A stretch of 34,774 nucleotides of DNA from Fibrobacter succinogenes (GTDB lineage: Bacteria > Fibrobacterota > Fibrobacteria > Fibrobacterales > Fibrobacteraceae): positions 1 to 34,774 of the forward strand of contig CACWPM010000061.1 of the NCBI GenBank assembly GCA_902762795.1, given 5' to 3'. Below are positions 30,108 to 34,774 of the stretch, one piece after another. Positions within the stretch are counted from its first letter, which is position 1. Each line of letters opens with the position of its first letter. Position numbers and translations under genes: made by a program. The notes beneath the pieces were generated by a model. The model worked only from the letters and a program-made list of their open reading frames with translations. It did no database searches and had not been told where the DNA came from.

Positions 30108-30348
30108 TTCAAGAAGAAAACAAACGAAAAAGCAATAATTTCCATTTCCAGAAGCCACTGCTTTTGACTATTATTTAGTTTACGAAAAAAATGTTATAGA
30201 AATTAGAATTTTTATCGGACAGCAATAAATTGTTTTATGCCATGGAATCTTATGCTTTAGCACGATTAAGATTGTTTTAGAATTGTAAAAAAAAAACTTG
30301 ACAAAAGTTTATAATAAAATAAATTATCACTTGTTGATTGGAGGGGGT
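30108..30348. promoter_or_regulatory. AT-rich upstream region of the PLAT/IPT operon with candidate promoter
   Basis: 241 bases, very AT-rich. TTGACA (30298-30303) is a perfect -35 hexamer. With a 16-base spacer the -10 would be TAAATT (30320-30325). A perfect TATAAT (30310-30315) is too close to be its partner. The ribosome binding site GGAGGGGG (30340-30347) is the strongest in the window, just before ATG 30349. No gene or clear terminator for the previous gene was seen. Confidence 0.5.
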
Positions 30349-33300
30349 ATGAAACAATTTATTGTTATAATTACCATTTTATTTGCTTTATGCACGGCAG
30401 CTTCATTTTCGCCGAATTCAGAAGCGGGAATGATATCGGTTTCTGTAGATGGTGAAAGCTTGCAGAATTTACTTTCAGTTTATGAAAATTCTGGTTTTCA
30501 CGATTTTGGAACTACCGAAAAAATAGATTCCGTTGATATAATAAAAAGAATTGACAAATATTATTTCTACAATTGGAAAATAGATCTAAATGATGATGAT
30601 CTAAAATTTAATATGGATGGAACGTTAAATGCACAAGCAGAATATGATTGGCGTAGCATTACATTTCATCCTTATGGAAAAACAAATGGTATAAGCGCTG
30701 TTGCTAACGCATTTTTTAAAGATTTTGGATTGTCAGATGATGGAAAAATTCATCTAAGTGTGTATATTGCAGATGCAGGTGTTGATATTTCTGATCTTTC
30801 TTATGGATATGGATTTATTATAGATAAGTTATTTATTGATGGTTTACTTGGTGTTGATGATTATATTGAAGCGGAAGTTCAGTCACGTGTTAAAAATACT
30901 TTAGAACAAATGACCGATGCGTTAAATTGTATAGACATTACAAATCAAATTGCTGTAAGTTTTCCGAATTTATCAAAAGAGGTAAAGATTAACCATGCCG
31001 ATACAAAGGTAGAAAATAATAAAATATATGCTTATGGTTGCCCAATTTCAAAAAAAATGATTGGCGATCAAGTCGTTATAAACGATACTCAATGCGAGAA
31101 TGTGATTTATAATATTTCGGTATGGACTGCAACAGATATAGGTAATGCGGGAACAAAATCAAAAACAAAAGTGTCTTTATGTGGTCGTGATATAACAGGA
31201 TCTAATAAATGCATAGACAATATAGATTTGAATAACTGGACTCAACAAGGACAATCTCATAGGCATATCCAAAAACCTTTTGTATTGATTGACGATTTGT
31301 CTGTAACCTTAGAAAGTGATAATTCCAGAAGTGATGATTGGTATGTGGATTCCGTTACAGTGGATATGAAACTTCCTAACAATAAAACATTCCATTATTG
31401 GTTTCCAATACATAAATGGATAGGGGGATTAATTGCACCAAGTTCATACACATTTAAACAAAATGATGATTTCCAAGTTTACACATTTAGAGTTGAAACA
31501 GGAAATCAGTCGGAATTCGATGGTGCTGGTACCGATTCAGATATTTTAGCTGAAGCATGCGATATTAATGATAAATGTCTTTTGTTTAATTTAGATAAAG
31601 ATAATTATAATGATTTTGAGAGTGGTTCTAATACTACATATACAATCATCACCAAGAAAAAATTAGATAATCTTAAAAGTTTGACCCTACATAATGTTCA
31701 TAATGGCAGCGATAACCCTGGATGGTATGTCCAAGATGTCTTGTATCTCCATTATTCATTTCCTGAAAATATCGATCATTCTGTAAAGGATGGTCAGGGA
31801 TTCATGTTCCGTCAATGGCTTGCTAAAGGAGAATACAAAGATTCCTATTATAGAACAGAAATGGATCGTTCATTTACCTCTATTATAGGTAGGTCTGATC
31901 TTTACTTAAGGCATGATATTTCTGTTAAGCGTCAAACAAACAATAATTTCGGATATAATGTCACGGTAAAAACGAAAGCTGGAGGTGCTAGTGGTACTGA
32001 TGCCGATATTATTTTGACTATAGAAGGATGTTCTGGAGAAAAGGAAATTTTCAATCTGAATAATGATAGAAATAATTTTGAAAAGGGAAATTTAGACAAC
32101 TTTAGACTTTCAGGTAAAAAAGATTTAAAGGGGATGAAAAGACTAACTTTATATAATGATGGTAGTGGAGATGGACCTGGATGGAATCCTGATACTTTGC
32201 AAGTATCCCTTATAAGTTATCAAGGTGAATATATTGTCCAATACGCAAAAGATGAAGCTACAGGTTTTGAAACAGGTGTTTACAACAAACCTTTCTTCTA
32301 TGTATTTACTAAAAATATAGCAGCGGGGGAAACATGGACTTCACCAGAACTTGCTTGTCCTGAAATAGAAAAACCAACAATCAATTCGTTCATTTATGAA
32401 ACCTATCCTGGTGATTATATAAAAATAACTGGAAATAATTTAGATAAGGCTCATGATATCAAGATTGTTTTAAATAAAACTACAAAACCTATACTTGTAA
32501 CAAGAGATTATGCTTTGATTCAGATTCCTGATGATACACCACAAGGCGATTATGATTGGGGCTCTGTTATATTAGACAGCGTTGTACAATCTGTTTTTAT
32601 TCATGTTCGCAAACAAAAACCAGTTCTAGACGGTTTAGCGATATCTGTAGCTGAACCCGGTGAAATTTTTGAAGCATCTATGCACAACATTGATTCATCC
32701 GCAAGTTTTTATTTAGGAGATAATCAATTAGAAGTACTTGATGTATCAAAACAAGGTGTTTATTTGCAAATCCCTAAAACTATGGAAAATGGTGTTTATA
32801 AGTTTAGGGCTGTATCAAATGGTTGGGATGTAGTTTATGATGAAACAATAGAAATAATCAAATCGATTGTTCCTCATGTTTCTTCCATTTCGGACAATCC
32901 TGTATATACTGGACAAATGGTTACGATTTATGGGAAAAACTTTGGTGAAGACGCATCATCTATACATGTTTTAGTTGGAGATAAACTGGCTGAAATCACA
33001 TTTCTAAAAGATGAAAAAATCACCATCCAAATCCCTAGCGGCGTATCTGGAAATGATATCACGGTAAGTGTTGATCGAGAAGATGTCTTTGCACCCGAAG
33101 TAATAAAAATTGAAATTAAAGGATTGCCGTGGTTTATGTCATTTGACGATAAAGAACATCCATGGACGAGTAAAAACGCAGAACTTTCGTATGATGCCTC
33201 TATAAAACAGGGTGATGTAGGTTATTCGTTAAAAATCCATGGTGATGGATACAAATCTATTGTTTCTCCAAAATTCAATACATACGAACTAAATTATGTT

Positions 33301-33666
33301 TCAAACACACTATTGTTAGATGTATGGATTCCAGAAATTCAAACAAATCCTTACTGGTATGGTGACGTTCAAATGAGTATAAATATCCCTGCTGCCGGGC
33401 TTTACAATTCTTGGATTAATCAGGTTTTACTGACGGGTTTACAGCCTGGTTGGAATACACTTTCTTTTGAGCTAAACCATGAAATTTATAAGGCTCTTTC
33501 TGGAAATTATTCAAATGTATCCATAACTATAATATTAAATGCTAACCAAAATCTAGATGATTTTCGTATAGATAACCTCAGGTTTGATGGCGACATAAAA
33601 ATTCGTGCAACAAGGCGCACTGTAGCAAGTAGCAACATAAACATTCTTCAAGTCGCAAGCAGGTAA
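30349..33666 (+). CDS. Large secreted multidomain protein: three PLAT/LH2-like and three IPT/TIG-like domains
   Basis: 1105 residues from ATG 30349; the TTG at 30298 would spoil the signal peptide and lies in the promoter. Signal peptide about 1-20. A unique domain follows at about 25-245. Three PLAT-like repeats come next, at about 249-341, 373-468 and 532-622. The second and third carry the family pattern AGTDSDI/SGTDADI, then F-E-x-G, L-K-S/R-L-T-L and G-W at similar spacing. Three Ig-like IPT/TIG units lie at about 674-752, 755-842 and 841-924 (PxVSSISDNPVYTGQMVTIYGKNFG is the clearest). The C-terminal 925-1085 looks like a jelly-roll carbohydrate-binding module (FSFELNHE, LDDFRIDNLRF). 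No catalytic motif was found. PLAT domains bind lipid or protein. The gene is far more AT-rich than the rest of the window and is followed after 4 bases by another secreted protein. Confidence 0.78.
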   Translation: MKQFIVIITILFALCTAASFSPNSEAGMISVSVDGESLQNLLSVYENSGFHDFGTTEKIDSVDIIKRIDKYYFYNWKIDLNDDDLKFNMDGTLNAQAEYDWRSITFHPYGKTNGISAVANAFFKDFGLSDDGKIHLSVYIADAGVDISDLSYGYGFIIDKLFIDGLLGVDDYIEAEVQSRVKNTLEQMTDALNCIDITNQIAVSFPNLSKEVKINHADTKVENNKIYAYGCPISKKMIGDQVVINDTQCENVIYNISVWTATDIGNAGTKSKTKVSLCGRDITGSNKCIDNIDLNNWTQQGQSHRHIQKPFVLIDDLSVTLESDNSRSDDWYVDSVTVDMKLPNNKTFHYWFPIHKWIGGLIAPSSYTFKQNDDFQVYTFRVETGNQSEFDGAGTDSDILAEACDINDKCLLFNLDKDNYNDFESGSNTTYTIITKKKLDNLKSLTLHNVHNGSDNPGWYVQDVLYLHYSFPENIDHSVKDGQGFMFRQWLAKGEYKDSYYRTEMDRSFTSIIGRSDLYLRHDISVKRQTNNNFGYNVTVKTKAGGASGTDADIILTIEGCSGEKEIFNLNNDRNNFEKGNLDNFRLSGKKDLKGMKRLTLYNDGSGDGPGWNPDTLQVSLISYQGEYIVQYAKDEATGFETGVYNKPFFYVFTKNIAAGETWTSPELACPEIEKPTINSFIYETYPGDYIKITGNNLDKAHDIKIVLNKTTKPILVTRDYALIQIPDDTPQGDYDWGSVILDSVVQSVFIHVRKQKPVLDGLAISVAEPGEIFEASMHNIDSSASFYLGDNQLEVLDVSKQGVYLQIPKTMENGVYKFRAVSNGWDVVYDETIEIIKSIVPHVSSISDNPVYTGQMVTIYGKNFGEDASSIHVLVGDKLAEITFLKDEKITIQIPSGVSGNDITVSVDREDVFAPEVIKIEIKGLPWFMSFDDKEHPWTSKNAELSYDASIKQGDVGYSLKIHGDGYKSIVSPKFNTYELNYVSNTLLLDVWIPEIQTNPYWYGDVQMSINIPAAGLYNSWINQVLLTGLQPGWNTLSFELNHEIYKALSGNYSNVSITIILNANQNLDDFRIDNLRFDGDIKIRATRRTVASSNINILQVASR

Positions 33667-33670
33667 CAAG

Positions 33671-34663
33671 ATGATGAAAAAAATTATATTAACAATTGCA
33701 TTTGTCGTTGCAACTCTTTGGGCTGATGATGAAAATAATAACTCTAGAATAAAGTCTGCGGTTGTAAAAATGCAGACCCTTGTTGGAGAAACTGCAGTAA
33801 ATAACATATTAAAGGCTTACTTTGCCGGGAAACACGAAATATCGGTAAAGGACATGGGCAATATTACTTTAACGTTAAATGATGAAAAATTTGGAATCGA
33901 CATTCAGGAAAATGACGACATCGTTTTTGGTTATGATATGACAATTACGTCTGATTTTCAGTCTTCATTATCCAATATATCTGGAGGGCGCATAAGCGGA
34001 GAATTAAATATTAAAGGAGCAATTTCTGCTAAAACGGTGAAACGAGTTGCAGATAATGCAGTTGAAAAGACAAAAAGTGCAATTGTAATTTTATTGGATT
34101 TAAATAGTGCTATTGAAAAAATGTTAAACAAGCATGGAATAAAAGAAGTTCCTATAATGTCTGCTATAAAAGATTTCTTTTTAAAAAAAGAAGCTGAAAT
34201 TGATGGAAAAATAGAACTTTGGAGACAGGAGTATAGCACGCTGTTAAATGTTTACATAAATAAGGTTGAGGCTCCATTAGATTTGAAGATTCTTGATGTG
34301 AATTTAAATTTAAGTCTAAATAACGATAACATTGTCGTTGATTTTGAAGCGGAAATCCAATCTGAAAAGCAATATTTTTGGATGGAAGGGAACTACAAAG
34401 ATTTTGCAAATATGTCTTTAAATTCAAATAAAGAATTTCAACTTATAGAAGTTGATTTGGTAGATGATATTCACAAAACTGGACGAAATCCTTCATTATT
34501 TGCAGTAGTGAAATGTTCCAACATATCAAAAGAACGGAGAAATTTTTTTAATTTAAAAGAGGTTTGTGGGGAATTTCCTGAAAAAGTTCCGTATTTGTAC
34601 GGCTTTTTTAGAGTAAGAACTAAGCATGGCGGAATACTTTTATTTTCGAGGCGTATAAAATGA
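33671..34663 (+). CDS. Hypothetical secreted protein, second gene of the AT-rich operon
   Basis: 330 residues. ATG ATG at 33671/33674 opens a signal peptide (KKIILTIAFVVATLWA, cut before DDEN). The rest alternates beta-strand-rich stretches (MGNITLTLNDEKFGIDIQENDDIVFGYDMTITSDF; PLDLKILDVNLNLSLNNDNIVVDFEAEIQSE) with long amphipathic helices (KTVKRVADNAVEKTKSAIVILLDLNSAIEKML). This strand-helix layout resembles, weakly, the N-terminal domain of the preceding large protein and lipid-binding TULIP/BPI-like folds. No family is recognised. It starts 4 bases after the previous stop, and its own stop overlaps the next start (ATGA), so three genes are co-translated. Confidence 0.7.
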   Translation: MMKKIILTIAFVVATLWADDENNNSRIKSAVVKMQTLVGETAVNNILKAYFAGKHEISVKDMGNITLTLNDEKFGIDIQENDDIVFGYDMTITSDFQSSLSNISGGRISGELNIKGAISAKTVKRVADNAVEKTKSAIVILLDLNSAIEKMLNKHGIKEVPIMSAIKDFFLKKEAEIDGKIELWRQEYSTLLNVYINKVEAPLDLKILDVNLNLSLNNDNIVVDFEAEIQSEKQYFWMEGNYKDFANMSLNSNKEFQLIEVDLVDDIHKTGRNPSLFAVVKCSNISKERRNFFNLKEVCGEFPEKVPYLYGFFRVRTKHGGILLFSRRIK

Positions 34664-34774
34664 TTAAAAAGTTTTTCTTCCTTTTTTTTCTAGTTGTAAG
34701 CGTTTCTTTTTGCTACGCCGGCGATTCGGATCGTCCGTTGGTTGAAATTGTATCGGAATCGAATGCTACGATGG
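34660..34774 (+). CDS. Secreted protein, 3' end outside window
   Basis: ATG at 34660 overlaps the preceding TGA (ATGA). The 38 visible codons give a signal peptide (IKKFFFLFFLVVSVSFCYA) followed by GDSDRPLVEIVSESNATM. A cysteine sits just before the likely cleavage site, but there is no proper lipobox. The coupling implies it belongs to the same operon and acts with the two proteins before it. Nothing more can be said. Confidence 0.7.
   Translation, partial: MIKKFFFLFFLVVSVSFCYAGDSDRPLVEIVSESNATM

Follow-up and report, generated by a model that had tools for sequence, protein, structure and literature searches.

SGBP-B proteins of Bacteroidota, such as BACOVA_02650 and PbSGBP-B, are surface-anchored lipoproteins in which tandem Ig/TIG-like domains are followed by a C-terminal beta-sandwich. 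Their genes lie next to SusC/SusD in polysaccharide utilization loci. Bacteroidota SGBP-B-like proteins bind glycans through beta-sandwich domains, and Cytophaga hutchinsonii requires one of them, CHU_1279, to use cellulose (PMC12016534). PLAT/LH2 domains belong to another setting, that of lipoxygenases, polycystins and clostridial alpha-toxin, in which they are linked to a catalytic or channel domain. The NDxE calcium trio is not universal among PLAT/LH2 domains. In human 5-lipoxygenase, calcium is bound via Asn43, Asp44 and Glu46, and membranes via Trp13, Trp75 and Trp102 (PMC5113960). Here, we describe a gene of Fibrobacter succinogenes whose product joins three PLAT domains to three TIG units and a terminal beta-sandwich.

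The window analyzed, 34,774 nucleotides long, is one whole contig (CACWPM010000061.1) of a 3.93 Mb genome (GCA_902762795.1). The open reading frame at 30349-33666 is a real gene of 1,105 aa, running from the ATG at 30349 to the stop codon at 33664-33666. Its features and those of the genes that follow it are:

30341 to 30348, plus strand: ribosome-binding site, a purine-rich GGAGG just 5' of ATG 30349 (sequence)
30349 to 30405, plus strand: predicted Sec-type signal peptide, aa 1-19, MKQFIVIITILFALCTAAS, without a canonical lipobox (sequence)
30406 to 31098, plus strand: orphan N-terminal module (head), aa 20-250, shared with the orthologues only, with no convincing Pfam or PDB relative
31114 to 31434, plus strand: PLAT domain 1, aa 256-362, in which the calcium site no longer has its acidic residues (PF01477)
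31480 to 31740, plus strand: PLAT domain 2, aa 378-464, N421, D422 and E424 retained (PF01477)
31954 to 32208, plus strand: PLAT domain 3, aa 536-620, N575, N576 and E578 at the trio (PF01477; coral lipoxygenase PLAT fold match)
32374 to 32610, plus strand: TIG/IPT-like unit 1, beginning at aa 676, with a weak sequence match (PF01833 E 0.0077 alone; plexin IPT alignment)
32611 to 32865, plus strand: TIG/IPT-like unit 2, aa 755-839, recognized by its fold alone, no Pfam match
32872 to 33081, plus strand: TIG/IPT unit 3, aa 842-911 (PF01833 E 5e-14)
33124 to 33606, plus strand: C-terminal beta-sandwich (JR), aa 926-1086, CBM-like fold, without Pfam family (AF2, fold matches, 29 homologues aligned)
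33671 to 34663, plus strand: companion gene g2, 330 aa, signal peptide, 4 bases downstream (adjacent homologues in three other genomes)
34660 to 34774, plus strand: 5' part of a third gene, which overlaps g2 at its stop (ATGA) and is cut by the contig end; possibly g3 (gene order)

This succession of three PLATs, three TIGs and a sandwich is real and uncommon: the first-pass annotation had called the combination of tandem PLAT, TIG and jelly-roll units unusual, and Pfam and fold matches confirm the domain order. The whole protein matches PLAT (PF01477) with an E-value of 3e-21, and all three copies, cut out and scored singly, exceed the Pfam curated cut-off of 23 bits (PLAT1, 32.2 bits, E 2e-7; PLAT2, 30.1 bits, E 9e-7; PLAT3, 36.1 bits, E 1e-8), which bears out the proposed triplication. 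They are the sole PLAT matches in the window's genome. PLAT3 matches the coral lipoxygenase PLAT by fold (Z 12.8), and PLAT1 and PLAT2 were modeled as beta-rich, at low confidence only, within the whole-protein AF2 model. The recurrence of GTDxDI and FExG motifs, claimed for the repeats as a set, holds for PLAT2 and PLAT3, where the GTD-to-FExG distances are 29 and 28 residues, and fails in PLAT1, which has GTKSK and no FExG. Against TIG (PF01833), the whole protein reaches E 1e-15. TIG3 alone is strong (52.4 bits, E 5e-14), TIG1 alone stays below the 20.9-bit cut-off (16.6 bits, E 0.0077), and TIG2 alone has no PF01833 match by sequence. By fold, TIG2 fits better than any other part of the model and aligns with an amylase-family Ig/IPT domain (VIA-align, Z 12.9, rmsd 1.5 Å over 82 residues), and the stretch aa 677-839 matches the tandem IPT domains of plexin. 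The count of three TIG units is therefore correct, because TIG2, undetected by sequence, was found by fold.

The C-terminal domain JR was modeled by AF2 from 29 aligned sequences as a confident beta-sandwich (pLDDT 91.7, pTM 0.87), in agreement with the jelly-roll end first annotated. None of the 29 copies scanned belongs to a Pfam family, and a sequence search of the PDB gave no significant relative. PF18329, the xyloglucan-binding domain of SGBP-B, has no match in the window's JR and matches two of the 29 copies weakly, under the cut-off (best E 0.089). The nearest solved folds include CBM27, 22, 28, 17, 11 and 30, MAM domains and the K3 cleaved-adhesin domain of gingipain. CBM27, CBM28, CBM22 and CBM17 share the beta-sandwich with Z 10-12 over 132-146 residues, and CBM11 is matched by Foldseek; identity to the six CBM families is about 10-16%, and the likeness is one of fold. 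The K3 match (Kgp, 3m1h), also by fold and not by sequence, is reminiscent of the situation in Fibrobacterota, as the gingipain jelly-roll adhesin lies downstream of a C25 peptidase, just as JR does in this phylum; the window protein, in contrast, has no peptidase. CBM-like jelly rolls are found as well in proteins of the MAM, cleaved-adhesin, toxin and lyase kinds, so the fold does not prove sugar binding by JR.

Among 167 Fibrobacterota genomes, 24 carry JR. It lies on the C-terminal side of exported C25 and S8 peptidases, VWA proteins, one phospholipase C-like protein and two pectate-lyase-like beta-helix proteins, with peptidases or VWA proteins being commoner hosts than polysaccharide-active proteins. 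We observed it as the last domain of many exported peptidases and beta-helix proteins of the phylum (e.g., L034, L036, L038 and L040). JR may serve in sorting or anchoring. Its reading as a secretion signal was set aside: JR is terminal in many exported proteins, but in others more sequence follows. JR is the best-conserved part of the window protein; in comparison with two orthologues, its identity is 70% and 68%, against 58% and 36% at the N-terminus. All three orthologues have two JR copies and the window protein has one (window 33600-33666); the second copy seems to have been lost.

Relatives were found in Fibrobacterota only. The three full-length orthologues come from Fibrobacter intestinalis ATCC 43854, its close relative (G154) and the F. 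succinogenes metagenome-assembled genome RUG14062, which is of the same genus as the window's genome; in the search of genome contigs, a single-sequence query returned nothing and an alignment query returned three loci. All three orthologues keep the gene order, with the gene followed by g2 and then by one or two small membrane proteins (g3, a multi-copy family), and, judging from this order, the truncated third gene of the window is possibly the g3 membrane-protein gene of the relatives. In these, g2 is exported, measures about 310-330 aa where complete, and shares 36-42% identity with the window's g2; the start of the G154 copy is out of frame. Full-length g2 occurs in two of 80 genomes of the genus, and the head is clearly present in four of the 167 genomes searched in the phylum, the window's own included. 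Another genome of the F. intestinalis genus carries a broken g2 with g3, a transposase-like gene splitting g2 (L129:8329-11148), and the first cassette gene is absent from the stretch read.

The head of about 230 aa had been missing from the first-pass description, as had the gene pair that follows and the abrupt fall in G+C. A PDB profile search returned nothing for it, AF2 placed residues 1-248 below pLDDT 50 with only four sequences, and no relative was found in viral contigs, nor any match in plasmids. Several candidates were discarded: Mfa2 (E 2.8e-4, just under the cut-off) and Peptidase_C71 (weak, under the cut-off), neither matching the F. intestinalis orthologue; kinship with g2 (hhalign probability 2.4%); and weak matches elsewhere in Fibrobacterota (E about 0.004-0.05) to unrelated-looking reading frames, one of them sensor kinase-like.

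The wider family extends to the Fibrobacteraceae genome G137, in which two proteins of about 1,900 aa each carry two JR domains; in L099, the one that was scanned, PLAT and TIG each match three times. The alignment of both proteins with the window protein spans PLAT1 to JR, at about 28% identity, and their N-terminus is longer and unrelated, which makes the PLAT-TIG-JR block a transferable unit with changing heads. We also noted giant Fibrobacter proteins with about 10-11 tandem PLATs and no TIG match (L097:2313-8954, L098:8110-15588); these show no obvious signal peptide and lie in a conserved neighborhood with BSP/DUF285-like repeat proteins, as judged by eye. In a further Fibrobacter, a zinc-dependent phospholipase C-like domain is followed by one PLAT near the C-terminus (L101:5960-8713), which is the domain order of clostridial alpha-toxin.

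The base composition of the locus departs from that of its surroundings. G+C is about 50% in window positions 1-28800, 33% in the 30349-33666 gene and 31% in g2; at third codon positions, it is 22% in the gene versus 63-69% in lon, pgm and clpX. The fall is abrupt, just before the gene, and the low-G+C stretch spans window 30108-34774, to the contig end. The orthologues, too, have less G+C than the DNA around them (43% versus 47-48%; 40% versus 56%). The low G+C fits horizontal acquisition. With the stretch seen on a single contig, a chimeric assembly is conceivable, although the restriction of the relatives to Fibrobacteraceae speaks against one.

Export of the protein is likely from its signal peptide; those of the orthologues are likewise hydrophobic and stop ahead of the same F-(S/A)-P motif. 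There is no canonical lipobox, as LFALC does not qualify and the F. intestinalis orthologue likewise lacks one, nor does the protein match the TIGR04183-type C-terminal sorting domain of type IX secretion. A type IX system that relies on C-terminal tails has been reported for F. succinogenes (PMC6851124), and 51 such tail matches are present in the window's genome. Without either signal, a periplasmic or freely secreted location is also possible. Of the surface or secreted protein first proposed, export is thus likely, and a surface anchor did not emerge; we consider the protein probably surface-exposed.

We favor, at a probability of roughly one half, an exported, non-enzymatic, multi-module binding protein of the adhesin or glycan-capture type, with glycan capture by JR as the first hypothesis. 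The Sec signal would export the protein; PLAT1-3 and TIG1-3, by their domain matches and a low-confidence model, could form a long stalk; JR may bind carbohydrate or a glycoconjugate, as its fold suggests by likeness to CBMs and to the end domains of SGBP-B; PLAT2 and probably PLAT3, by their conserved residues, may bind calcium, stabilizing loops or aiding ligand or membrane binding; and the variable head, g2 and g3, given the gene order, are likely links to the envelope or to a specific target. In a Foldseek search with the whole model, the top matches were SGBP-B structures (5e7g, E 1.9e-10, then 6e57, 6d2y and 7k44); because this model is of low confidence (pLDDT 48.6, pTM 0.28), the match is one of topology only. 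In comparison with SGBP-B, the window protein adds three PLATs and the orphan head in front, has no canonical lipobox and no significant PF18329 match in its JR, and has no recognized SusC/SusD-type neighbor among the window genes scanned (ClpX, Lon, RrnaAD of KsgA type, phosphoglucomutase, an FGE-sulfatase-like protein and g2), the contig ending 111 bases after g2. The adhesin or binding scaffold of the first-pass annotation, with no catalytic domain recognized, remains the best reading, and the C-terminal half (TIG1-3 plus JR) resembles binders of plant and other glycans; the lipid role and surface anchoring fared less well.

The protein might instead be a lipid or membrane scaffold whose PLATs dock in a calcium-dependent manner on the cell's own outer membrane, on vesicles or on protozoal or host membranes, while the head and g2 handle a lipid or partner. 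We consider this unlikely. With the PLAT/LH2 domains of lipoxygenases, polycystins and alpha-toxin, the protein shares PF01477 in three copies, the GTD loop and NDxE in PLAT2, and differs in lacking any lipoxygenase, channel or phospholipase domain. Calcium sites, which had been put forward as a check, differ between the domains: N421, D422 and E424 of PLAT2 align with the NDxE loop of coral lipoxygenase and complete the trio, PLAT3 has most of it as N/N/E (N575, N576, E578), and PLAT1 has none. On residue conservation, calcium binding is likely for PLAT2 and probable for PLAT3. The PLAT attached to the phospholipase C-like protein of another Fibrobacter would also speak for a lipid role. However, the PLAT1 site is lost, and residue comparison with lipoxygenase shows no tryptophan kept in PLAT2 or PLAT3 at the loops that would insert into a membrane; membrane insertion is not indicated. 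A TULIP/BPI-like lipid-binding fold, guessed for the head from helix and strand spacing, drew no support from the PDB profile search or the AF2 model, which did not speak against it either. The membrane- or lipid-binding role first suggested is so far without support. No publication relevant by title was found on PLAT domains in Fibrobacter.

A structural or assembly protein of the outer membrane or periplasm, acting with g2 and g3 and not as an extracellular adhesin, would suit a cassette that is conserved and encodes other exported or membrane proteins, as well as the lack of a surface-export signal; yet the cassette is rare (g2 in 2/80 genomes, head in 4/167) and decaying in relatives, unlike core envelope machinery, and this explanation too appears doubtful. 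That the N-terminal 230 aa are an unrecognized enzyme or effector, with PLAT-TIG-JR as its targeting tail, we regard as improbable: the same block does carry unrelated N-termini, and JR elsewhere follows enzymes, but the head matches no catalytic family, the subthreshold Peptidase_C71 and Mfa2 matches being absent from the F. intestinalis orthologue. The earlier statement that no catalytic domain is present holds for Pfam over the protein, in contrast to lipoxygenase, alpha-toxin and polycystin, and is not assertable for these unclassified residues.

The binding protein we favor has a mosaic history in the F. intestinalis group, where we compared the ATCC 43854 locus C21 with the G154 locus C42 (L062:7430-11206, L063:7763-11536). 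DNA identity changes in steps near module boundaries: 69-75% over aa 1-241, 90-96% over 242-541, 77-82% over 542-841, 96% over 842-901 and 86-100% beyond. By position, C42 corresponds to another ATCC 43854 locus, C103 (97.6% identity over 5.5 kb, in the flanks), where a deletion has collapsed the cassette and the beginning of the first gene now runs, out of frame, into the end of g2 (L064:1382-1767). The two loci, the patchy identity and the deletion point to recombination between duplicated cassettes, which, to judge from the patchwork in these two relatives, may alter head and stalk blocks. The dN/dS between the ATCC 43854 and G154 copies is 0.16, a figure that averages different histories in a mosaic pair, and indicates that intact copies are under purifying selection and not in decay. 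Both the patchwork and the collapsed copy would be accounted for by a surface module that recombines rapidly and can be dispensed with. More tentatively, and with less than even odds by some distance, the locus could represent a Fibrobacter-specific recombining surface system: a three-gene cassette with a conserved PLAT-TIG-CBM-like stalk, head and stalk exchange between duplicated loci and losses by deletion, serving diversified attachment or evasion of phages or protozoa, with the head as a new fold and JR as a new CBM-like family.

Fibrobacter attachment to plant fiber is incompletely understood, and the cassette offers a testable candidate for a non-catalytic binding protein, with PLATs in an unusual setting. 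In JR, there is also a CBM-like domain that has no Pfam family and recurs in the phylum on exported peptidases, beta-helix and phospholipase-like proteins. Should the mosaic stem from active recombination, a gut bacterium would here be seen to diversify an exported protein rapidly.
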